A stretch of 64,000 nt of DNA from Rhodovulum adriaticum. GTDB taxonomy: Bacteria > Pseudomonadota > Alphaproteobacteria > Rhodobacterales > Rhodobacteraceae. The notes below the pieces were generated by a model, which made no database searches, was not told the DNA's origin, and saw nothing but the letters and a program-made list of their open reading frames with translations. Shown here piece after piece: positions 1-11,578 of the stretch (position 1 is its first letter; each line of letters opens with the position of its first letter). The position numbers and the translations under genes are program-made. The stretch covers positions 124,001 through 188,000 of the forward strand of contig NZ_SLXL01000003.1 of NCBI RefSeq assembly GCF_004345735.1. The letters are read 5' to 3'.

Positions 1-1569
1 TTCCCGCTGCTGCCCGGCAACGGTTACACCTGGATCGCGACCTATGTGGAACAGCCTTTCCTGCGGCAGCGGGCGTTCAACTATCTTTTCGGCACCTCGA
101 AAAAGATTGTCGAGCGCCTGCCGCCGCCAACCCCGCGCGAGAAGATGGCCTTTGCGCTGTATGCCCTGGGATCGGTCCTGACGATCGGGGTGCTGGCCAG
201 CCTTTTCGCGCTGCACTTTACCTCGGCCCTTGAGGGCCGGTTCGGCGGTACCGGGCTGCTTATGTTCCTGGGTCTGCTGGTCGCCCTTGTCCTGTGGATG
301 TCGGTCATGAAGCGGGCCTATCGCAAGGCCGGGGCACAGACGATCCGGCGTGCGGTGGTCAAGGGAATGCGCGACGGCAACACCAACCTGCCGGTCCCCC
401 TGGGCGGCAAGGCCAAGACCGGCACCACCCTGCCCGTGCCCGCCGGACGCGGCGGCGCCCTGGTCAAGCAGGGCCAGCGCCTGCCCGGACCGCCCCGGCG
501 GGTGCCGCTGGCCGGTGTCTATACCACCCCGGCCAAGACGCGCTGGCGGTGGGTGCGCCGCGGCGTGCTGGTACTGGGGCTGGCGGCGCTGATCTACGGG
601 GCCTTTCAGCCCTACACCTACGAAACCGGCGGGGATTTCGTGATCCTGCCCGATCAGCGCAGCAAGGTCAGCCCCCGGGTCGAGGGTGAGCTGGTCGAAA
701 TCTATGTCGACGAGGGCGATATCGTCGAGGCCGGGCAGCCGCTTGCCCGCCTGTCCGATCTGGCGCCGCGCCACGCCGTCGCCTCGATCGCGGCGGAACT
801 GGAAAAGGCGCGCGCTGTCCTGTCCCGGCTGGAGGCCGGCGCCAGTTCCGAGGAGATCCAGGTCGCCCGCGAACAGGTCGAACTGGCCAAGGCCGACCTG
901 CCCTACAAGGAGGGCCAGATGGCCCGCGCCGAGGCGCTGTTCGAACGCGGCACCATTTCCCAGGCCGAACTGGACAGCTATCGCACGGCCTATGCGGTGG
1001 CGCTGCAGAAACTGCGCACCGCCGAGGCCAACCTGGCCGAGGTTCAGGCCCCGGCCAGCGATGCCGATATCCGCATCGCACGCGCCGACGTGAACCGGCT
1101 GGAGGCCGAGCTAGCCTATCAGCAGAACCGCCTGGACGAGGTCGTGATCCGCGCCCCGGTGACCGGTCAGATCGTGACCGAGAATGTCCGCCTTCTGCAT
1201 GGCAAGCACATGTCCGAGGGCGAGCTTTTCGTCGAGATCGAGGACCATAGGGTGGCCCGTGCCGAGGTCCGCGTGCCCGAGGCCGATATCGGCCTGGTCA
1301 CGGCCGGTGATGCGGTGCGCCTGAAGGCCTGGGCCAGCGCCTCCAGCGAATTGGTCGGCGAGGTTGTGGGCATCGCCCCCCAGGCCGAAGAGGCCGAATT
1401 CGGCAATACCGTGCGGGTCAAGACGCAGCTGGACAACAGCAGCGGCTTTTTCCGGCCGGGCATGACCGGCTATGCCAAGATCGACGGCGCCGAGATGAAA
1501 AGCTGGCAGGCCTTCTCTCGCCTGGTCGATCGGTTTTTCCGGATCGAGGTCTGGGGCTGGATCCCATAA
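1..1569 (+). CDS. M50-like / HlyD fusion membrane protein (5' end outside window)
   Basis: The frame is open from base 1, so the gene starts upstream; 522 residues are visible. The first ~130 residues look like the C-terminal membrane part of the peptide-zinc-metalloprotease (M50) type: the stretch PLLPGNGYTWIATYVEQPFL resembles the NPL..DGY..L.D..E.PNLR pattern of that family, followed by two hydrophobic segments (about residues 50-75 and 85-108). A third membrane segment near residues 185-200 leads into a HlyD/membrane-fusion module: a split lipoyl/beta-barrel region (VSPRVEGELVEIYVDEGDIV) around a long helical hairpin rich in Ala, Glu and Leu. The aspartate of the DGY motif, a zinc ligand in active M50 enzymes, is Asn here, so protease activity is doubtful. 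Probably an export or envelope-assembly protein; substrate unknown. Confidence 0.75.
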   Translation, partial: FPLLPGNGYTWIATYVEQPFLRQRAFNYLFGTSKKIVERLPPPTPREKMAFALYALGSVLTIGVLASLFALHFTSALEGRFGGTGLLMFLGLLVALVLWMSVMKRAYRKAGAQTIRRAVVKGMRDGNTNLPVPLGGKAKTGTTLPVPAGRGGALVKQGQRLPGPPRRVPLAGVYTTPAKTRWRWVRRGVLVLGLAALIYGAFQPYTYETGGDFVILPDQRSKVSPRVEGELVEIYVDEGDIVEAGQPLARLSDLAPRHAVASIAAELEKARAVLSRLEAGASSEEIQVAREQVELAKADLPYKEGQMARAEALFERGTISQAELDSYRTAYAVALQKLRTAEANLAEVQAPASDADIRIARADVNRLEAELAYQQNRLDEVVIRAPVTGQIVTENVRLLHGKHMSEGELFVEIEDHRVARAEVRVPEADIGLVTAGDAVRLKAWASASSELVGEVVGIAPQAEEAEFGNTVRVKTQLDNSSGFFRPGMTGYAKIDGAEMKSWQAFSRLVDRFFRIEVWGWIP

Positions 1570-1629
1570 CGGTTTGAAACCAGCCATCGGCCGCGTCTTA
1601 CCCTGCCCGCAGCCGTTCGGGCGGGATGC

Positions 1630-2201
1630 CTAGGCCCGGTTGCGGTAAAGCGTGCTTTCCACCGCGCCGGCCATCGCCCCCCGATCCAGACCGCCGCCCA
1701 GGAATTCGTCCAGAGCCTGGGCCGCCTGCGCGGGGTCGGCGACCACCTGCCCGTAGTCCAGGCGCAGCAATGCAATGTTGCGCTGCGCCTCGGCCCAGCG
1801 AAGAAAGCGGATCACCTCTTCTTGAAACAGCCGGTGCAAGACGTCCCGGCCGATCGCATCGGGATCCAGCCCGTCGCGGCGCATCATCACCTCTTGCGAG
1901 GCGAGAACCTCGTCCAGGTCGCGCTGCATGAACACCAGACGGTACTCTACGTCCGGGGGCAATTCATAGGCCAGCTTGTAGATGACCTTGACCGCCTGGC
2001 CCCGGCGACCCAGCCCTTGTCATGGGGCAGATCCTTGACCGGCTCGAACTCGAAATACCCGCGCGGATTGTCCTCGTTCGCGGTGCGCAACTCATCGGTC
2101 AGCGGCGGAACCCCGCCCGCAGCCAGCATGCCCATCATCATCGAGGTGCCCGAACGCGGCAGCCCCGAGACAATAGTGACGAAATCGGCCCTGTCGGTCA
2201 T
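1630..2201 (-). pseudogene. Sulfotransferase family protein, frameshifted
   Basis: Two minus-strand frames together make one protein. The N-terminal part has the PAPS-binding loop typical of sulfotransferases (VTIVSGLPRSGTSMMMGML) and runs to about position 2000; the C-terminal part (PPDVEYRLVFMQRDLDEVLA to the stop at 1630) continues in another frame. Adding one G in the run near 2000 restores a continuous reading, VAGARAVKVIYKLAYELPPD, giving about 190 residues, the size of short bacterial P-loop sulfotransferases. The start at 2201 is preferred to an ATG at 2231 because AAGGG precedes it. Either the gene is inactivated or there is a one-base sequencing error in a G run. It sits between an M50/HlyD protein and a Gly-rich protein, so sulfation of an exported polymer is possible but unproven. 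Confidence 0.7.
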
Positions 2202-2352
2202 CTCTGCCCTTGCCCCTGTCCCGTTTTCCATGACTTAGCGGGTTTTTGCCCCCATTGCCTAGCCCTTGGCGCAGGCGCCGTCGCGCAGATGCTTGCCGCA
2301 TGCCCGACCGTCTGCTTAACTCGGATCGATACGACGAGCGGAGGATCGTTTC

Positions 2353-3216
2353 ATGGCTGACGAAAAGGGCACCCCGACACCCCCGGCCGGGTCTGCCCGG
2401 TCACGCTTTTCCAACGATCACAGTTTCCAGCCCGCGCAGCAGCCCGCCACGGGCCGCGCGTTCGGCCCGGCCCGCAGCGTACCCGCGGCCGCCGGCCCGG
2501 ATATTGGCGCAGGGCCTGCCCCTGCCGGCGGCGCCGGATTTGGCGGTGCCCCCGCAAGCGGGGCCGGCGGACAGGCCCCCTTGGGCGGTCAGGGGGCGTT
2601 CGGCGGTCTTCAAGGCGGCTTTGGCGGGGGCCAGGGTCGATTCGCGGCAGGGCGTCCGGGGGGCGGCTTTGGTGCGGCAGCGGCCGGTGCGCGTTTTGGC
2701 GCGGGCCAGACGCCCCCGCAGGGCGGGTTCGGCGGTGGACAGGCCGGGCAAGCCGGTTTCGGTGCCGCCCGTGCTGGGGGCCAGGGGCGCTTTGGCGCGG
2801 GGCAAATGGGCGCGCAGGGCGGCTTTGGCGCCGGTGGCGCGGGGGGGCAAATGGCAGGCAATGGCGGCGGGCTGTTGATGCTGCTCCTGCTGGCGCTTGC
2901 CGGTCGGGCGCTGTCGAACCAGCAAGGCGGACAGGGCGCCGGGGCGTTCGGCGGGGGCGCAGGTGCGGGGTTTGGCGCCGCGCAAGGGGGATTCGGCGGG
3001 ATGCACGGCGGTTTCGCGCCCGCCCAGGGCGGTTTCGGTGCGGCCCAGCCGGGCACGGCCCAGCCCGCGCCCGCCGCCGCCCCGCAGGATCCGGGCACGC
3101 CCCCCGCAGCACCGGCCACCACGCCCACGGCCCCCGAAGGCGGATGGGCCAACTGGCGCGAGGATGCCAAGCGGCTTAAGGCCGAGGCCGGAGAATCCCC
3201 CGATCCAAAGGACTGA
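2353..3216 (+). CDS. FG/Gly-Ala-rich low-complexity protein with one hydrophobic segment
   Basis: This 287-residue protein has no recognised enzyme fold. A polar N-terminus (about 40 residues) leads into many short repeats of the form QGGFGA, GGGFGA, AGFGA. A single hydrophobic stretch, LLMLLLLALAGRAL (about residues 175-190), interrupts the repeats, and the C-terminus ends in a charged tail (NWREDAKRLKAEAGESPD). A clear GGAGG eight bases before the ATG supports the start and real translation. There is no N-terminal signal peptide. The repeats resemble self-associating FG or glycine-rich low-complexity sequence; a structural or membrane-tethered scaffold role is inference only. Long open frames on the opposite strand are by-products of the repetitive GC-rich sequence. 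Confidence 0.65.
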   Translation: MADEKGTPTPPAGSARSRFSNDHSFQPAQQPATGRAFGPARSVPAAAGPDIGAGPAPAGGAGFGGAPASGAGGQAPLGGQGAFGGLQGGFGGGQGRFAAGRPGGGFGAAAAGARFGAGQTPPQGGFGGGQAGQAGFGAARAGGQGRFGAGQMGAQGGFGAGGAGGQMAGNGGGLLMLLLLALAGRALSNQQGGQGAGAFGGGAGAGFGAAQGGFGGMHGGFAPAQGGFGAAQPGTAQPAPAAAPQDPGTPPAAPATTPTAPEGGWANWREDAKRLKAEAGESPDPKD

Positions 3217-3233
3217 CGGCGCAGACCGCGCGG

Positions 3234-3998
3234 TCAGGCGCTGCAACCCTCCAGCTGCAGCATCGCATAGCCCAGATCCAGCGGCGCAAAACCACCCGCC
3301 CTGCGTTGATCGGCCGGGCGCTCGATCACCGGCGCGTTGATGCGGGCGGCGATATCGGGGTCGCGCCGCAACGCAAAGGCCGGCACGCGGAAATGGTCGC
3401 CCTGATAATAGACCGTGCTGCGCACATGGGGCAGATCGGCGATATTGGCGGCCTGCGCCACATCGACCGGATCGTTCTGCCCGTAATAGATGTCGATGCT
3501 TGCCACCCGGTCGGAATGCGCCTCCATCATCGGGCGCAGGTTGGAATAGGGATACCCCGCGTCGATCTGCTGCTTACCTTGCTCGAACAAACCGGTGAAT
3601 TGCGGATGCGTGGCCCGGTCCGTTTGCAGGACCGCGGCCATATCCGTCACCGGTCCGACCAGATACATGTCGTCGATGCCGATCCAGTGCCCCCATAGCA
3701 CCGCCGGATGGGTCCCGACCGACCCTGAAACGATGGTCACCCGCTTTGCGCCAATCTTGGCGATCATGTAGCGCAGGAACTCGACGTTTTCTTCCTCGCT
3801 CTCGGTCACGCCGGGGATGCCGTGCCGGAACTGGTGGGGGGAATCGTCACGCAGGAACAGCTTGGTCTGCTGAAAGGGGGCGGCGAATTTCAGAAAGTGG
3901 AATTCCTTGAAATTCGGGTAAAGGTAACCCGAGACGAACACGATCAGGTGCTCCGGATCCCCGGCCTCCAGCCCTGCGCCCCAACCGATCATCTCCAT
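3234..3998 (-). CDS. Alpha/beta-hydrolase-fold protein (paralog A)
   Basis: 254 residues with an alpha/beta-hydrolase layout: a first strand HLIVFVSGYLY, a nucleophile elbow VTIVSGSVGTHPA with Ser93, an acidic strand IDIYYGQNDPVDV and a late His in YYQGDHFRVP. It aligns along its length with the divergent neighbour at 4206-4940 (VEFLRYMIAKIGA against VEFLNYFAQSIGA), so the two are paralogs. The elbow reads S-G-S-V-G rather than G-x-S-x-G, but the serine, acid and histidine are all kept, so an esterase or thioesterase activity remains likely. No signal peptide or membrane segment. It is transcribed away from its paralog, with a shared 207-base control region. Substrate unknown; the FkbH-ACP protein nearby suggests an acyl or glyceryl thioester. 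Confidence 0.65.
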   Translation of the reverse strand: MEMIGWGAGLEAGDPEHLIVFVSGYLYPNFKEFHFLKFAAPFQQTKLFLRDDSPHQFRHGIPGVTESEEENVEFLRYMIAKIGAKRVTIVSGSVGTHPAVLWGHWIGIDDMYLVGPVTDMAAVLQTDRATHPQFTGLFEQGKQQIDAGYPYSNLRPMMEAHSDRVASIDIYYGQNDPVDVAQAANIADLPHVRSTVYYQGDHFRVPAFALRRDPDIAARINAPVIERPADQRRAGGFAPLDLGYAMLQLEGCSA

Positions 3999-4129
3999 CG
4001 CGAACCTCTCCGTACTCCGGCGCCACCCCGCCGGGCTGGGCGGGCTGCGTCATTTCATATCCCGCCGTCCCCCGCCTGCAAAGCCGCGCCTGCGCCGGGC
4101 CGGACCAGCTGTCACAGCTTCAGCTTGGT

Positions 4130-4152
4130 TCTTTTCCGGTGCCGGGAAAAGA
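4130..4152. promoter_or_regulatory. Inverted repeat between the two hydrolase paralogs
   Basis: Perfect eight-base arms TCTTTTCC and GGAAAAGA flank a seven-base centre, lying between two divergently transcribed paralogs and just before an AT-rich TATTTT (4155-4160). The position fits an operator shared by both genes, or a hairpin in the leader of the rightward gene. No matching regulator gene is nearby. Confidence 0.35.
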
Positions 4153-4205
4153 CGTATTTTGAATCCGCGGGGTGCACAGCCCCGAAGTCAGGTCAAGGTG
4201 ATCGA

Positions 4206-4940
4206 ATGCTTGAAACCATCGGACCGGATGCGGTGTTCCAAAGGGGGCAGAACGATCACCTGGTTGTCGTGTTCAGTTCCCTGGCCACGATCTTCACCGG
4301 CCAGTACGAGGGCATGGCCCTGCTGCGAAATCGCCCCGAGCATGTGCTGTATCTGCGCGAACCGGTGGCGCTGGCCTTTCACACGGGCCTGACCGGGCTG
4401 ACCACGACGATCCCCGAAACAGTGGAATTCCTGAACTATTTTGCCCAAAGCATCGGGGCGACGCGGCGCAGCCACATGGGGGCCTCCAGCGGCGGATACG
4501 CGGCAATCCTCTACGGGCTTTTGTGCAGGGTGGATGACGTTTTCGCGGTGAACCCGGCGACCTTCGTGTCCGAAGGGGTGCAAACGCGGCTGTCCTGTCC
4601 CCCGCGCGAGCATTTCCCGCTATCGGCCTTCCGCGACCATTACGACCGGACGGGCCAACCGCTGGCCCATGGCGACCTGTCCGACGAGCTGCGCGAACGT
4701 GCCGGCGCGGTCAAGGTGATCGGGGTGCATTACGCGGCCAACGATGAGACGGACCGGATCAACGCCTGCCACCTGACCGGTTGTCCCGACACCTTCACCA
4801 TTGCGCACAACTCGGACCAGCATGTGCTGCTGACCTTCGCGCTGGCCGAACAGGGGGTACTGAACCACCACCTGGTGACACCGCTGGATCAGCTGCGCAG
4901 CGATTACCGGGCGCTGGCCGATCAACAGGCCCCTGCCTGA
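4206..4940 (+). CDS. Alpha/beta-hydrolase-fold protein (paralog B)
   Basis: 244 residues counted from the ATG at 4206, chosen because an AAGG motif lies about six bases upstream and because homology to the paralog starts there; the frame is open further left but without protein-like sequence. It has a canonical elbow MGASSGGYAA (G-A-S-S-G, Ser94), an acidic position in VHYAANDETD and a late His in HNSDQHVLLTF, so the Ser-Asp-His triad appears intact. It is a paralog of the minus-strand neighbour at 3234-3998. Its 3' end overlaps the 3' end of the FkbH-like gene by 19 bases. Likely a cytoplasmic hydrolase or transferase; no precise substrate can be given. Confidence 0.65.
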   Translation: MLETIGPDAVFQRGQNDHLVVVFSSLATIFTGQYEGMALLRNRPEHVLYLREPVALAFHTGLTGLTTTIPETVEFLNYFAQSIGATRRSHMGASSGGYAAILYGLLCRVDDVFAVNPATFVSEGVQTRLSCPPREHFPLSAFRDHYDRTGQPLAHGDLSDELRERAGAVKVIGVHYAANDETDRINACHLTGCPDTFTIAHNSDQHVLLTFALAEQGVLNHHLVTPLDQLRSDYRALADQQAPA

Positions 4941-7159
4941 TCTGCCAGCGCCCGGCGCAGGTCCGCGTAGCTGTGGATCGAAAACAACACCTCCATCGGC
5001 AGGCGAACCTGCATGGTTTGCTCGATCTCCATCGCCAGCGCGACATGTTTCAGGGAATCCCAGGCGGGGGTGTTCTCCATCGTGACCGTGGACAGGTCCG
5101 TGGACGCGTCCAACCCCAGCTTGTGCCGGAACAAGGCATCCAGCGTCTTGTTCAACGCTGCGGGATCGCCCGCGGCGCACGCGGCAGATCCGGGCGCAGG
5201 GGCCGTGGTCGACAGGGGTGAAGTCGCCAAGGGCGAGGCCGGAGTCGTCGCCAAGGGCGAACGCGGCGCCGACGCGACCGTTGCAAGCGGCGAACGGGGC
5301 GGTTCTGCCACCGGGGGCCTTGTCCGGGCGGACACCACCCTCAGATGCGCGGGCAGCAACGACGCCCTGTCATCGCCAGGCTCCAGGTCCAGCGCCCAGA
5401 TGTCGCCCGGTCCGGCGCCGCAAAGCGGCGCGAAACCCGCGCCCTGATAGATCTGCCTGACCGGGGTGTTGCGTTCGGTCGGAATGATCTGCCCCATCAG
5501 GCAACCGGCCCCCTGCCCCCGCGCGCTTTGCACGGCCTGCCAAAGCATGGCCCGCTCCACATCCCGGCCGAGGATCCGGCAACTCAGCATCAGGCTGTCG
5601 ATGACCCAGGCGCCATCCGCAGGCCCAGAAACGGCCGACAGATCCAGCCCGACCCCCATATCACGGGCCGCCCGCAGGATCAGAACCCCCATGATTTCAT
5701 AGGGGGTGTGGCGATCCTCGACCCCAACCCCCAGGATCAGCCCCCCTTGCGCCGCGATATGCGCAAGCGTGGCCGCATCGTGCCGTCGGGTGGTGGCGTT
5801 GAACTGGTTGGTCTTGACGATCAGCTGTTCGATCCGCTGCCGGTTGGAGGGGCCGTACGGTTCGAACGTGATGCGGATGTCCAACCCGCGCAGGAAGGCC
5901 TGCAGATCCTCTGCGGCGGCCTCGGCGCGGCGCAACTGCGCGCGCGCGCGGTACTGCGCGCCGCGGGTCACATCAGATCCGGTCAGGGACAGACAATCCA
6001 GGTAGGGATGGCGGTCCAGCATCGCGATCCGATCCTCCACCCGCTCGGGCAGGTCCGGCACCTGGCACTGCGGCAACCGCTGGCGCACCTTGGCCCGTTC
6101 CAGCGGATTGTCGTCCAGGAACATGCAATGGGCCTGCCCCAGCGACAGCTCTTCCAGCATCGCGGCGATGCCGTCGGCCTTTTCGGACCAGCCGATCCGA
6201 TGGGCGGCCAGATCATCGGGCCGGATCAGCATGTCGGGATGGTCTGCCATCGCGCCCAAGGCCAGATCCGTATCGTTCTTGGAGGCCACGGCCAGCACGA
6301 TGCCCCTGTCGGCCAAGCCTTTGATGCGGGATTGAAACTCTCGGAACGCGCCGCCGGGATAGCCGCCGCCCAGGCGTAGGCCACCCATCCCGTCCTCGCC
6401 CAGCACACCGCCCCACAGGGTGTTGTCCAGATCAAGGACCAGCAACCGGGTGCTGCGCCCGGTCAGAAACAGCAGCGCAGCGATCACCCGCCGCGACAGC
6501 GCGGCTGCGAACCCGGCCGAGAACGGCGCACGCGCGGCATGCCAATACATTCCGGGGGCTGCGGCCTGCCGGCCGACCTCGGCGATCAGAGCATCGGTAT
6601 CGATCCAGTGCACCCCGGCCATTCCGGCGGTTTCCTCGCGAAGATGCGCGTTGGCCGATTTCAGCGCGGCGGCCAAACCTTGTTCGGCTGCCGGATCGAC
6701 CATGCCAAGGGTCGAGGCGGAAAAACTCGCCAAGGAGAAGACCAGGATCGGCCCCGTTCCCCGCGCCCGCGCCTGGCGCACCGTGTCCAGCATCGGCGCC
6801 ACCGCGGCGGCGATCCCGTCCTGCCCCCGGTCGTACAGGCGCAGGGGGCGATGCACCGCCTCGCCCAGCAGATCCTCGGCGCGTTCGAACACCACAGCGG
6901 CCGCCCCGGCCGCCAGCGACCGGCACAGCCCCGAGGTGTTGTCGCGCAGGTCGATCCCGGCCCGGCCATAGGTGGCAACCCGGCATTGCAGCGCCGCGTT
7001 CCACTGGGCGGCCTCGCTTGCCAAAGCCTCGGCCAGGATATCCAGATTCGCGCTGCCCAGCAGCGCCAGCGTCCCAAGGTCGGCCATGACGGCCCCCTCT
7101 GCCCCCAAAGACCCTTGCGCAAGGGCCTGACCCTCTGCGCGTGCATCATCGCCGTTCAT
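4922..7159 (-). CDS. FkbH-like HAD-IIIC protein with GNAT-like region and C-terminal acyl carrier domain
   Basis: 745 residues from the ATG at 7159; a longer TTG-type extension upstream looks non-coding. An N-terminal region of ~235 residues, like that of long FkbH proteins, is followed by the HAD phosphatase core (LLVLDLDNTLWGGVLGEDG, residues 239-257; later VASKNDTDL and FLDDNPLERAKV). A GNAT-like region follows (IMGVLILRAARDMGV, IIPTERNTPVRQIYQGAGF). Then comes a Pro/Ala/Ser linker with repeated SPLAT units, and an acyl carrier domain whose last 60 residues hold the phosphopantetheine serine in PAWDSLKHVAL (about Ser702). FkbH enzymes load a glyceryl unit from 1,3-bisphosphoglycerate on to a carrier protein; here enzyme and carrier are one chain. 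Probably makes a glyceryl- or hydroxyacyl-thioester for modifying a glycan or lipid; the acceptor is unknown. Confidence 0.8.
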   Translation of the reverse strand: MNGDDARAEGQALAQGSLGAEGAVMADLGTLALLGSANLDILAEALASEAAQWNAALQCRVATYGRAGIDLRDNTSGLCRSLAAGAAAVVFERAEDLLGEAVHRPLRLYDRGQDGIAAAVAPMLDTVRQARARGTGPILVFSLASFSASTLGMVDPAAEQGLAAALKSANAHLREETAGMAGVHWIDTDALIAEVGRQAAAPGMYWHAARAPFSAGFAAALSRRVIAALLFLTGRSTRLLVLDLDNTLWGGVLGEDGMGGLRLGGGYPGGAFREFQSRIKGLADRGIVLAVASKNDTDLALGAMADHPDMLIRPDDLAAHRIGWSEKADGIAAMLEELSLGQAHCMFLDDNPLERAKVRQRLPQCQVPDLPERVEDRIAMLDRHPYLDCLSLTGSDVTRGAQYRARAQLRRAEAAAEDLQAFLRGLDIRITFEPYGPSNRQRIEQLIVKTNQFNATTRRHDAATLAHIAAQGGLILGVGVEDRHTPYEIMGVLILRAARDMGVGLDLSAVSGPADGAWVIDSLMLSCRILGRDVERAMLWQAVQSARGQGAGCLMGQIIPTERNTPVRQIYQGAGFAPLCGAGPGDIWALDLEPGDDRASLLPAHLRVVSARTRPPVAEPPRSPLATVASAPRSPLATTPASPLATSPLSTTAPAPGSAACAAGDPAALNKTLDALFRHKLGLDASTDLSTVTMENTPAWDSLKHVALAMEIEQTMQVRLPMEVLFSIHSYADLRRALADQAGAC

Positions 7160-7478
7160 GCCTGTCACCCCATCTGCGCCGCAACGCACACTGATCGCAC
7201 CTGTCGAGGGTGACGGAAAACCCGCCGTCAAGGCAAGCGCGCTTTCACGACATGATATGCGGACCGATGCGTATCGCCTGGCCGGAAATGCCCCACGTGC
7301 GGCCGACGATGTCAAAGCCGGTCACAAGGATGTTGCACAAGCCTTTTAAGAGCAGGGTCTATCCAGCCGTTCCGCAACGGAAATCGCCCGCCAGGCCCAT
7401 CGGAGATTGATCCAAGGGACGTGGGGGCATTACGTTTCGCGGAAAGGCGATAACTGATATGTCCAGTGGGGAATGACC
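7160..7478. other. Divergent control region between the FkbH-like gene and ugpB
   Basis: 319 bases with no credible gene. It must hold promoters for the leftward FkbH-like gene and the rightward ugp operon. Two short inverted repeats are visible: TTCCGCAACGGAA (7370-7382) and TTTCGCGGAAA (7435-7445), whose similar arms could be operator sites. I found no convincing Pho box (paired CTGTCAT) despite the ugp genes downstream, and no -35/-10 pair good enough to call. Confidence 0.5.
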
Positions 7479-8789
7479 ATGAAAACCTGCATCTCGTCGC
7501 TTGCCGTCGTGTCCGCAACGCTTGCCGCCGGACAGGCCGCCGCGCAAACGGAAATCGAATTCTGGCACGCCTTTACCGGGCGGCTGGGCGAACTGGTGGC
7601 CGAGCAGGTCGAAACCTTCAACGCCACCCAGACCGACTATGTCGTGACCGCCACCCACAAGGGGAACTACTCTGAAACCCTGAACGCCGGCATCGCCGCT
7701 TTCCGCGCCGGGGAACAGCCCGACATCCTGATGGTGTTCGAGGTCGGCACCGCCACGATGATGGCCGCCGAGGGCGCGATCAAGCCGGTCTACCAACTGA
7801 TGGAAGAGGCCGGGGCGGATTTCGATCCCGATGCCTTCATCGGCTCGGTCAAGGGCTACTACACCACCACCGACGGCGAGATGCTGTCGATGCCCTTCAA
7901 CTCGTCCACGCCGGTGCTGTGGGTCAACCGCGATGCGCTGGAGGGGGCGGGAATCGACCCCGACACCGACCTGTCCACCTGGCAGCAGGTCGGCACGGTT
8001 CTGGACGAACTGAAAGCGGCCGGGCACAGCTGCCCTCTGACCACCGCGTGGCAAAGCTGGATCCACCTGGAAAACCTGTCGGCCTATCACGACGTGCCCT
8101 TCGCCACGCAGGACAACGGCTTTGCCGGGCTGGACACGGAACTGGCGTTCAACGGCCCCGTTCAGGTCAAGCACATCCAGACGATGGGCGACTGGGCGCG
8201 TGACGGCAAGTTCATCTATGCCGGCCGCCGCAACGAAGGTGGGGCGAATTTCCGCGCCGGGGAATGCGCGCTGTTCACCGAAAGCTCGGCCGGGTACGCG
8301 GGTATCAGTTCCGAGGCCGAATTCGATTTCGAGGTCCGCCCCCTGCCCTATTGGGACGGTGTCGAGGGCGCGCCCCAGAACACCATCATCGGCGGTGCGT
8401 CGCTGTGGGTGATGGCGGGGCAGTCGGACGAGGAATACCAGGGCGTCGCGGCCTTCCTCAACTTCCTGTCCTCGCCCGAGATTCAGGCCAAGTGGCACCA
8501 GGACACGGGCTATCTGCCGATCACCTCGGCCGCTGGCGAGCTGACCCGCGCCCAAGGCTTCTACGAGGAAAACCCCGGCACCGACATCGCGGTGCAGCAG
8601 ATGACCGCCAACGAACCGACCGCCAATTCGAAGGGTCTGCGCCTGGGATCCTTCGACCAGATCCGCGGCATCATCGACGAAGAGCTTGAGGCCGTCTGGG
8701 CCGGCGACAAGGACGCGCAGGCCGCGCTGGACAACGCGGTTGAACGCGGCAACCAGTTGCTGCGCCGCTTCGAACAGGCCAACCGCTAA
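7479..8789 (+). CDS. ugpB: sn-glycerol-3-phosphate ABC transporter, periplasmic binding protein UgpB
   Basis: 436 residues from the ATG at 7479, preferred to the in-frame ATG at 7473 because GGGGA then lies six bases upstream. A typical signal peptide (ISSLAVVSATLAAGQAAAQ) precedes a mature start near TEIEFWHAF, the family's opening strand. UgpB-like stretches include FEVGTATMMAAEGAIKPVY, MPFNSSTPVLWVNRDAL and IIGGASLWVMAG. It binds sn-glycerol-3-phosphate or glycerophosphodiesters in the periplasm and delivers them to the UgpA/UgpE channel. First gene of ugpBAEC. A strong stem-loop follows its stop, consistent with the binding protein being made in excess. Confidence 0.93.
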   Translation: MKTCISSLAVVSATLAAGQAAAQTEIEFWHAFTGRLGELVAEQVETFNATQTDYVVTATHKGNYSETLNAGIAAFRAGEQPDILMVFEVGTATMMAAEGAIKPVYQLMEEAGADFDPDAFIGSVKGYYTTTDGEMLSMPFNSSTPVLWVNRDALEGAGIDPDTDLSTWQQVGTVLDELKAAGHSCPLTTAWQSWIHLENLSAYHDVPFATQDNGFAGLDTELAFNGPVQVKHIQTMGDWARDGKFIYAGRRNEGGANFRAGECALFTESSAGYAGISSEAEFDFEVRPLPYWDGVEGAPQNTIIGGASLWVMAGQSDEEYQGVAAFLNFLSSPEIQAKWHQDTGYLPITSAAGELTRAQGFYEENPGTDIAVQQMTANEPTANSKGLRLGSFDQIRGIIDEELEAVWAGDKDAQAALDNAVERGNQLLRRFEQANR

Positions 8790-8827
8790 GGCACGCGCGC
8801 GCCCCGGCCCCCGCGCCGGGGCGTGCC
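8790..8827 (+). other. Intercistronic stem-loop between ugpB and ugpA
   Basis: Immediately after the ugpB stop, GCCCCGGC (8801-8808) pairs exactly with GCCGGGGC (8815-8822), and outside it GGCAC (8790-8794) pairs with GTGCC (8823-8827). There is no T tract, so it is more likely an mRNA-stabilising or attenuating hairpin than a full terminator. Such hairpins after binding-protein genes raise the level of the periplasmic component over the membrane subunits. Confidence 0.6.
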
Positions 8828-8837
8828 CTTTCCCCCC

Positions 8838-9719
8838 ATGGAAAAGCGCGTCCTCTTCAAGGGCATCTGGCTGCCGCTTCTGCTGGTCCTGCCCCAGATC
8901 CTGATTACCGCCGTGTTCTTCTTTTACCCGGCCGGGCAAGCGGTCTGGCAGTCGCTTTTCATCCCCGATCCGTTCGGGCTGTCCTCGCAATTCGTGGGCC
9001 TGGGCAATTTCGAGTATCTGCTGTCGGACCGCTACTACCGCGCCTCTTTCGTCACCACCGCGATCTTTTCAACCCTGGTCACGCTGGTTTCGATGGGTGT
9101 TGCGCTGTACCTCGCGGTGCTGGCCGACCGGCTGATAAAGGGGTCGGGCGCCTATCGCACCCTGCTGATCTGGCCCTATGCGGTCGCCCCCGCCGTGGCG
9201 GGTGTCCTTTGGATGTTCATGTTCAACACCCGCGTCGGCGTGGTCACATGGTATCTGGGCCTGCTGGGATATGACTGGAACCACGTCCTGAACGAGGGCG
9301 AGGCGATGAGCCTTGTCGTGATCGCCTCTTCCTGGGGGCGGATCAGCTATAATTTCCTGTTTTTCCTGGCCGGGCTGCAAGCGATCCCCAGATCCGTGAT
9401 CGAGGCCGCCGCCATCGACGGCGCCCGGTTCTGGACCCGCTTTCGGACCATCGTCTTTCCGCTGCTTTCGCCGACCACCTTCTTTCTGCTGGTTGTGAAC
9501 ATCGTCTACGCGTTCTTCGAAACCTTTGGCGTGATCCACACGATCACCAGCGGCGGACCGCAACAGGCGACCACCATCCTTGTCTACAAGGTCTATGCCG
9601 ACGGCTTTGTCGGACAGGATCTGGGCTCTTCCGCCGCGCAATCGGTGATCCTGCTGGTCGTTGTCTCGATCCTGACGATCATCCAGTTCAAGTATATCGA
9701 ACGGAGGGTCCATTATTGA
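8838..9719 (+). CDS. ugpA: sn-glycerol-3-phosphate ABC transporter permease UgpA
   Basis: 293 residues from the ATG at 8838; a GTG at 8823 would lie inside the intercistronic hairpin and is less likely. About six membrane helices are visible, starting with [20 protein letters not shown]. The cytoplasmic EAA loop that docks on the ATPase reads [20 protein letters not shown]. Length matches E. coli UgpA (295). It forms the heterodimeric channel with UgpE. The ugpE gene follows directly, with its likely start 20 bases after this stop. Confidence 0.92.
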
Positions 9720-9739
9720 GCCGTTCCCCCCGTTCCGGC

Positions 9740-10576
9740 ATGGTTGAAAATCGTGGACTCGGCCTGTGGTTGACCCATGCCGGGTTGATCCTGGGCGTCG
9801 CCTTCATCTTCTTTCCGATCTGGCTGGCCTTCGTGGCCTCTACCGTTAGCCAGCCCGAGATCGTGCACCCGCCCATGCCGCTGGTCCCCGGCGACCAGTT
9901 CTTTGAAAACTACCGCAAGGCACTGGTTGCAGGCGTAAACGCGCCCGTGGCGCTGATGCTGCTGAATTCGGGCGTCATGGCCATCGGCATCGCGGTGGGC
10001 AAGATCATCATTTCGCTACTGTCGGCCTTCGCCATCGTCTATTTCCGGTTCCCGTTCCGGCGGGTGTTCTTCTGGCTGATCTTCCTGACGCTGATGCTGC
10101 CCGTAGAGGTGCGTATCGTGCCCACCTACGAGGTCGTGGCCGGTTTCGGCATGCTGAACAGTTATTCGGGGCTGATCCTGCCGCTGATCGCGTCTGCCAC
10201 CGCCACCTTCCTGTTTCGCCAGTTCTTCATGACCGTCCCGGACGAACTGGCCGAGGCCGCCCGCGTCGATGGCGCGCGGCCCATGCAGTTCTTCTGGGAC
10301 ATCCTGCTGCCGATGAGCCGGACCAACATCGCCGCGCTCTTCGTGATCCTGTTCATCTATGGGTGGAACCAGTATCTGTGGCCGCTGCTGATCACGACCG
10401 ACCCGTCGATGAACACCATCGTCATGGGCATCAAGCAGATGTTCCCGTCGGGCGACGACATCGCCGACTGGCCGGTCATCATGGCAACCTCGATCCTGGC
10501 GATGCTGCCGCCGGTGGTGGTGGTCATCGGGATGCAGCGGCTGTTCATCCGCGGACTTGTGGAAAGCGAGAAATAA
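9740..10576 (+). CDS. ugpE: sn-glycerol-3-phosphate ABC transporter permease UgpE
   Basis: 278 residues from the ATG at 9740. A TTG overlapping the ugpA stop (9716) would add eight residues, but the ATG gives [19 protein letters not shown], which closely matches the start of known UgpE proteins. Several membrane helices are clear, and the EAA loop reads [20 protein letters not shown]. Partner of UgpA in the import channel. The gene ends in TAA directly followed by the ugpC ATG, so translation is probably coupled. Confidence 0.92.
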
Positions 10577-11578
10577 ATGGCGACGGTAACGCTGAATGAC
10601 GTGCGCAAGCGCTTTGGCACGACACAGGTGATCCACGGCGTCGATATCGACATCGCCGAGGGCGAGTTCATCGTGATCGTCGGCCCCTCGGGCTGCGGGA
10701 AATCCACGCTCTTGCGTATGGTGGCCGGCCTGGAAACCGTGACAGAGGGAGAGGTCCGCATCAACGGCGAACGGGTGAACGACAAGGAACCCATGGACCG
10801 TGACATCGCCATGGTGTTCCAGAACTACGCGCTTTACCCGCATATGTCGGTGTTCGACAACATGGCCTACGGGCTGAAGATCGCCAAGACACCCAGGACC
10901 GAAATCGCCGAGCGTGTGCAGGTGGCGGCAAAGCTCTTGCAGTTGGAACCCTACCTGCAACGCAAACCGCGCGAGTTGTCCGGCGGGCAGCGGCAGCGTG
11001 TCGCCATGGGCCGTGCTATCGTGCGCAAACCGGCCGTGTTCCTGTTCGACGAACCGCTGTCCAACCTCGACGCCAAGCTGCGCGTGCAGATGCGGCTGGA
11101 AATCAAGCAATTGCAGCGGGAACTGGGTGTCACGGCGCTGTACGTCACCCATGACCAGGTAGAGGCGATGACCCTGGCCGACCGCATGGTGGTGATGAAT
11201 GCGGGCCGCGCCGACCAGATCGGCGCGCCGCTGGATGTCTATGCCCATCCGCAGACCGAGTTCGTGGCAGGCTTCATCGGCTCGCCGCCCACGAATTTCC
11301 TGGACGCCGCTGTGCTGGGCGGTCAGGGCGCGCGCCTGGGCATCCGGCCCGAACACGTGCATCCTGGCCCGGCCGGGTCGGGCCGGATCACCGCCCGCGT
11401 GCTGGATGCCGAGGCACTGGGCGCGGAAACCCTGATCCACACGCGCCTGCCCTCGGGCGAATTGCTGACCGTCCGCCAGAACGGAACGACCGGCTGTCCC
11501 GGCGAGGGCGAAGAGATCGGCCTGGACTGGGCCGACGCCGACGAGATGCGCTTTGGCCCGGACGGCCGCCGGATCTGA
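10577..11578 (+). CDS. ugpC: sn-glycerol-3-phosphate ABC transporter ATP-binding protein UgpC
   Basis: 333 residues. ATPase motifs are intact: Walker [10 protein letters not shown] (36-44), the Q loop in [11 protein letters not shown], signature LSGGQRQRV (about 134-142), and Walker B VFLFDEP (154-160) followed by the D loop SNLD. The C-terminal third is the MalK-like regulatory OB domain ([11 protein letters not shown]). It powers uptake through UgpAE and abuts ugpE with no gap. No ugpQ phosphodiesterase follows; the operon ends here, convergent with nrdJ. MalK-type ATPases serving other sugar importers look similar, but the operon context makes UgpC the best call. Confidence 0.92.

Follow-up and report, generated by a model that had tools for sequence, protein, structure and literature searches.

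The chemistry of FkbH enzymes has been published (PMC7489565; this and all other papers are cited here from partial texts), and FkbH proteins acting with a carrier have been proposed to feed polyketide synthase (PKS) or nonribosomal peptide synthetase (NRPS) lines (PMC7489565, PMC13122637). Here we describe an FkbH protein with its own acyl carrier protein (ACP) domain, FkbH-ACP, encoded in a 64,000-nucleotide window of Rhodovulum adriaticum (C3:124001-188000 of a 3.35-Mb draft assembly). Its conserved link appears to be to hydB, an alpha/beta-hydrolase-like gene, with which it would form a pair separate from the lipid-synthase cluster lying beside it. FkbH-ACP resembles the tetronate and methoxymalonyl-ACP proteins Mad7/Mad8 and Mad14/Mad12 in its FkbH domain, its HAD motifs and its carrier partner, but differs from them in that the carrier is fused through a PLAT-repeat linker and a hydrolase is the partner (PMC7489565). 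FkbH-carrier fusions are already known from NRPS loading modules (PMC13122637, PMC10143770). Those of aeruginosin and suomilide, in which FkbH is joined to a peptidyl carrier protein (PCP), share with the window protein the single chain and the presence of pathway sulfotransferases; however, FkbH-PCP is part of an assembly line, whereas FkbH-ACP is free-standing. In Campylobacter jejuni, the FkbH-domain gene cj1302 of the flagellar glycan locus likewise stands in a glycan-decoration setting, and lies near several genes of DUF2920, a family of unknown function whose likeness to the hydrolases considered here is one of context (PMC7099621); at E<=5, Pfam reported DUF2920 for none of 11 members of our hydrolase family. 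The available excerpts of PMC7099621, PMC13122637 and PMC10143770 do not describe FkbH modules as polysaccharide donors, and those of PMC6519341 and PMC4875605 report carrier proteins, without FkbH, at loci for O-antigen and for flagellin glycans. New here is the pairing of a free-standing FkbH-ACP with a hydrolase family that is so far unclassified and, on a wider scale, the repeated link of FkbH, ACP and VOC proteins with acyltransferases.

The FkbH identity of the protein is well marked, with a profile score of 227.8 bits to TIGR01686 against a curated cut-off of 146.65. Its frame is open from 4922 to 7315 on the minus strand and holds two possible ATG starts, 7159 and 7087, of which we prefer the latter because it matches the start of the ortholog from G112, a genome of a second genus, in alignment. 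A weakly matched FkbH_N part, the HAD-IIIC core and a GNAT-like part come first; a linker built of SPLAT repeats then leads to the carrier domain. Among 12 aligned FkbH sequences, Asp219 and Asp221 of motif I, Lys270 of SKN and Cys503 of SCR were invariant, and the second Asp of LDDN was kept in 11. An AlphaFold model built from three sequences, of moderate quality (mean predicted local distance difference test score, pLDDT, 65), matched BF1531 (3slr) in the PDB at E=2e-19, and GNAT proteins and MDP-1-type HAD phosphatases near E=1e-3, along with other entries; the same model predicts helices at residues 632-720, the carrier region. The orthologs of G112 (48% identity) and G378 (45%) retain the WDS[L/M] site, as does a VOC-ACP protein of G455. 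The first-pass annotation of this DNA had proposed a single protein uniting an FkbH HAD-IIIC core, a GNAT-like region and its own ACP, and the TIGR01686 score, the GNAT fold matches and the WDS site bear this out; the retention of the HAD motifs and the SCR cysteine also suggests that the enzyme is self-contained, as had been claimed. The corresponding linker of the G112 protein (L023:9779-12091, contig C5) contains about a dozen NPLATKP-type repeats; the motif is conserved between the two proteins and the length is not.

Because of this domain anatomy and the neighboring genes, we infer a self-loading donor. Acyl transfer over a cysteine is a feature of FkbH enzymes. The FkbH part would take up a small phosphorylated hydroxy acid (1,3-bisphosphoglycerate in characterised FkbH enzymes) and remove its phosphate, and a glyceryl-type acyl group would travel via the conserved cysteine to the protein's own C-terminal carrier. 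The loaded unit would be a small hydroxyacyl, probably glyceryl, and the phosphopantetheinyl transferase (PPTase) domain of the adjacent cluster could prime the carrier serine too. hydB would then release the acyl group or transfer it to an acceptor, most likely the secondary-lipid product of that cluster, which encodes PfaDA-like and PfaBC-PPTase-like proteins, sulfotransferases and an HlyD protein. We infer the substrate, the cysteine route, the role of hydB, the acceptor and the link to the lipid, and the proposal as a whole, a one-protein acyl-donor module with hydB as releasing or transferring enzyme and the adjacent cluster's product as the most likely acceptor, is a tentative one that we hold to be plausible, if short of probable. 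The lipid is favored as acceptor because of the kinship of the hydrolases and the shared occurrence of the pair and the cluster.

The pairing itself is seen in two genera. In the window, hydB lies tail to tail with the FkbH-ACP gene with a 19-nt overlap, and in G112, the only further genome in which we found the two together, the orthologs of both genes (44-45% identity) are arranged in the same way. At E<=1e-60, a two-row FkbH-ACP profile matched 6 genomes in a sample of 244 from the order; FkbH matches were found in 14 of 198 genomes, eight of them weaker, and a search within the genus gave no FkbH relative in any of 15 other species. On its other side, the start of hydB diverges from that of its paralogue hydA, so that the divergent pair described in the first-pass annotation was found as reported. 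The two proteins are 26% identical, and a third paralogue, hydC, lies outside the window at C3:119941-120684 (L002:13941-14684, minus strand). Across 11 aligned members of the family, the Asp and His of the triad are present in all and the Ser in 10; hydC has Cys instead, its nucleophile stretch reading GICTGG. A cysteine nucleophile like that of hydC occurs in some acyltransferases.

Assignment of these proteins to a known family was less straightforward. Neither Pfam nor NCBIfam gave a family above cut-off for hydA or hydB, and Pfam gave none for any of the 11 members, the best weak match being UPF0227 (E=0.0015, in three of them). The family profile matched solved alpha/beta hydrolases weakly, at no better than E=0.05 and for the most part near the nucleophile; its top structural match was an unrelated designed repeat protein, and hhalign comparison with the ordinary abhydrolases of the cluster gave a probability of 44%. 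We call hydA and hydB alpha/beta-hydrolase-like, with a putative fold. The earlier claim of two paralogous alpha/beta-hydrolases with intact triads thus stands for the Ser-Asp-His columns and the paralogy, but the fold name has no family model above cut-off behind it, and the paralogues number three. The alpha/beta-hydrolase-like triad and the weak superfamily matches would also suit editing or resistance enzymes, such as a type II thioesterase or a detoxifying esterase, with FkbH-ACP as an unrelated neighbor; the conservation of the hydB/FkbH-ACP tail-to-tail arrangement in a second genus argues against this explanation, which we consider very improbable.

A profile of the hydrolase family whose rows came from G000 and G112 matched 17 of 198 family genomes at E<=0.001, and exceeded 60 bits only in G000, G035, G112 and, more weakly and without the cluster, G197. 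Searches with hydB gave no match in a plasmid collection and no relative in viral contigs. In the tree, hydA shares a clade with a single cluster copy from G282 and another from G330 (support 100/100; 53-56% identity). The copies found in the clusters of G112, G035 and G239, and a second copy of G330, represent another hydrolase type than hydA.

The cluster's main genes, encoding two synthase proteins, lie on C3 a short way beyond the window's left edge. The domains KS, AT, ACP, KR, DH, ER and PPTase are all present, with one PS-DH match in the scanned part of the synthase, and the VSISH stretch of the PPTase fits the hShxH motif. By this domain content, the cluster is a predicted polyunsaturated fatty acid (PUFA)/secondary-lipid-type synthase cluster, a known kind. 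Fused PfaDA and PfaBC-PPTase proteins are reported from Aquimarina, Flavobacterium and Renibacterium (PMC13291983), and the secondary-lipid types M-T of Shulse and Allen include, in type O, the alphaproteobacterium Dinoroseobacter shibae; the hShxH form of the PPTase motif is ascribed to M, N, O, P, R, S and T but not to Q (PMC3098273). The cluster resembles Pfa-type synthases in its ER-KS-AT-ACP-KR and KS-AT-DH-PPTase proteins and in VSISH, but differs in having its own epimerases, phosphodiesterase, HlyD protein, FG-rich protein and hydrolases. The first-pass annotation knew of no described system with this layout; the apparent novelty arose largely because the edge of the window hid the adjoining synthase. 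In the large synthase protein, the number of ACP domains seems to differ between genomes, with one in ours and two to four in relatives (from tblastn pieces).

As the cluster marker we used an 835-aa propeller-epimerase, counting as carriers those genomes whose match reached at least 74% identity; seven of 394 family genomes qualified, our own included. Six further genomes, in which only the N-terminal half of the marker was matched, at 39-48%, were not counted. The ACP and both synthase proteins were found in six of the seven carriers, the contig of G239 ending first. A member of the hydrolase family lies in or beside the cluster in six of the seven; the exception is G380, whose 49-kb contig has no such member. 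The HlyD protein was matched along its length in four of seven (our genome, G112, G330 and G035), the small sulfotransferase was matched in one piece in four of the other six, and FG-rich frames stand beside the sulfotransferase in G330, G282 (where the frame is cut by the contig end), G112 and G035. Because these window genes or near paralogues of them recur in the carriers' clusters, we assign hydA and the FG-rich, sulfotransferase and HlyD genes to the cluster. In G282, the HlyD relative (L079-L078, about 1400-4605) corresponds to the N-terminal and membrane part only, with no match to the HlyD half. The intact sulfotransferase-PQQ protein between the synthase and hydC has a 42% match over nearly its whole length in G380.

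The distribution of FkbH-ACP itself, and the quality of several of its supports, weigh against a lipid-linked donor. FkbH-ACP was found in two of the seven carriers, our genome and G112, and is missing from five; therefore, the lipid does not need FkbH-ACP. The G112 pair is on a different contig from its cluster, and although pair and cluster occur together in each genome that has the pair, n is 2, one being the query. In G378, whose FkbH belongs to the same clade (support 97/99), neither a hydrolase nor a cluster gene was matched within 28 kb of the FkbH-ACP gene; this genome is not among the cluster-marker matches of a search in which it was presumably included. The carrier domain scores 17.0 bits against the PF00550 gathering cut-off of 20.8 (E=0.007-0.008), the hydB structure model from two window sequences is poor (pLDDT 46.6), and the grouping of hydB with the G112 copy has moderate support (86/82). 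Finally, in G035 a different FkbH-like protein directly adjoins the synthase. This last arrangement favors another possibility, that FkbH-ACP supplies the synthase with a glyceryl or lactyl unit to begin or end its chain, in the manner of tetronates or of assembly lines that start from glycerate, consistent with the published proposals for PKS and NRPS lines noted above. The five carriers without FkbH-ACP speak against such a role, as does the finding that no gene scanned here matched a FabH-like or O-methyltransferase family in Pfam, and we judge it quite unlikely. The five families that the first-pass annotation had joined as one linked system do not hold together as such, given the five carriers without FkbH-ACP and the locus of G378; linkage between the hydrolases and FkbH-ACP is retained for hydB, in G112, and the hydrolase family otherwise recurs in the lipid-synthase cluster.

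The surroundings of FkbH relatives provide a wider view of possible acceptors. We read 11 neighborhoods: G112, G130, G101, G051, G083, G378, G455, G274 and three plasmids, the latter hand-picked rather than randomly drawn from 104 records, with the other 101 left out; the eight genomes with weaker FkbH matches (G006, G007, G008, G031, G035, G054, G084, G089) and the actinobacterial loci L019 and L020 were not read for neighbors. Acyltransferase or nonulosonic-acid genes were close to FkbH in nine of the 11, a count without background control. MBOAT genes were near FkbH in G101, G051, G083, G274 and SC52, a hexapeptide acyltransferase in G130, GNAT and NeuB in G455, and NeuB-family and pseB genes in Maritalea; the exceptions were G112 and Paroceanicella. 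A VOC protein was close in seven (G112, G101, G083, G274, G455, SC52 and Paroceanicella), again without background control. The SC52 plasmid pSC52_6 carries the gene set ACP-FkbH-MBOAT-VOC-acyltransferase with a sulfotransferase near. Such ACP-FkbH-MBOAT-VOC sets, in pSC52_6 and G101, are similar to the window locus in having FkbH and a carrier protein, but differ in their separate carrier gene, in MBOAT instead of a hydrolase, and in the VOC protein. VOC (glyoxalase-like) loci include L098:11969-12685 in G455, where the protein is fused to an ACP, L027:19584-19997 in G101, L023:12943-13347 in G112, and L127 in SC52; a tblastn search over 102 kb of our own contig found no VOC relative. In G378, a 967-aa fusion of hexapeptide acyltransferase, FkbH and ACP is encoded at G378:C30:368178-371081 (L096-L097), among polysaccharide-type genes with two AT3-SGNH acyltransferases.

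Because of these neighborhoods, a glycan acceptor is also favored. Conceivably, FkbH-ACP and hydB form an independent unit for the acylation of surface glycans, which happened to land beside the cluster and acts on an exopolysaccharide, O-antigen or nonulosonic acid. The G378 fusion, from the same FkbH clade, the NeuB-type clusters holding FkbH in G455 and Maritalea, the SC52 gene set, and the five cluster carriers without FkbH-ACP are all consistent with such a unit. MBOAT proteins are not limited to glycan acceptors. Against such a unit, Pfam matched no acyltransferase of these kinds in the genes scanned next to the window pair, none was recognised by eye beside the G112 pair, where the VOC protein alone among the neighbors was scanned, and hydB belongs to the cluster's own hydrolase family, with both pair genomes carrying the cluster. 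We regard the glycan unit as rather unlikely, and continue to prefer, tentatively, the donor module acting with hydB on the lipid. The role in acyl decoration that had been suggested from the window alone is supported in part, being favored by the neighborhoods of FkbH relatives, counted without background control. The coordinates of the features discussed are given in Table 1.

Table 1. Features of the FkbH-ACP locus and the adjacent lipid-synthase cluster. Positions are those of the window unless a contig or locus is named.
Feature	Position	Strand	Remarks
FkbH-ACP gene	4922..7159	-	ATG 7159 in the first-pass annotation; ATG 7087 closer to G112 ortholog
FkbH N-terminal domain, PF21211	6482..7069	-	E=0.0032, under its cut-off; 3slr fold match
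FkbH domain, HAD-IIIC core and GNAT-like part	5429..6448	-	Motifs DLDNT, SKN, LDDN and SCR intact
Linker with SPLAT repeats	5190..5326	-	Between FkbH and ACP; from alignment with G112
Carrier domain	4952..5059	-	PF00550-matched part; WDSL serine at codon 5054-5056
hydB, alpha/beta-hydrolase-like	4206..4940	+	Ser94, Asp183, His206; G112 ortholog 44% identity, same layout
hydA, alpha/beta-hydrolase-like	3234..3998	-	Type present inside G282 and G330 synthase clusters
FG/GQ-rich low-complexity protein	2353..3216	+	Recurs in cluster
Sulfotransferase, PF13469	1630..2231	-	Two frames here, 1947-2231 and 1630-1962
HlyD-type membrane-fusion part	1..1569	+	Belongs to 975-aa protein starting 1359 bases left of window
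First synthase protein	C3:110034-117320		2428 aa; NMO/ER, KS, AT, ACP and KR domains
Second synthase protein	Left of window on C3		KS, AT, DH, terminal PPTase (PF01648 E=3e-12)
Free ACP	Left of window on C3		PF00550 34.7 bits
Phosphodiesterase, abhydrolase, epimerases, TPR protein	Left of window on C3
SDR and start of HlyD protein	Left of window on C3
LpqC-like esterase	Left of window on C3		Label by eye; no Pfam match
Intact sulfotransferase-PQQ/BamB-like fusion	L002:11420-13951	+	Between synthase and hydC

Among the other window genes, the FG-rich protein and the sulfotransferase broken over two frames were present as first annotated. Relatives of the small sulfotransferase are unsplit in G112, G282, G330 and G035, and the split seen here may mark a pseudogene or stem from faulty assembly. 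The export-like protein at the window's left edge, first read as M50/HlyD, is of HlyD type, but its identity as an M50 protease was rejected, with no HExxH in any of four proteins examined and no M50 Pfam match. The Ugp transporter (7473-11578) was likewise rejected as a part of the system: it is divergent to FkbH, and nothing in the regions taken around the six other cluster loci matched ugpB at E<1e-4. A possible genomic island was also considered, whose empty site would join the LysR/TOBE gene directly to ugpB; these flanks were not found adjacent within the genus, and G+C content is alike in the cluster (0.67-0.675) and its flanks (0.66-0.67).

More broadly, FkbH-ACP, often with a VOC protein, could be an interchangeable hydroxyacyl-donor module for cell-surface molecules in this family and on Rhodobacterales plasmids, into which MBOAT, AT3-SGNH, hexapeptide or GNAT acyltransferases are plugged, with hydB serving as one more transferase, unclassified and of alpha/beta-hydrolase type, onto a Pfa-type secondary lipid; we offer this generalization as a speculative and, at present, improbable one. 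If the donor-module reading is right, glycerate-type acyl-ACP chemistry, associated mainly with antibiotic lines, would be tied to surface glycans and lipids in environmental bacteria, and a hydrolase family unclaimed by Pfam would gain a testable role.

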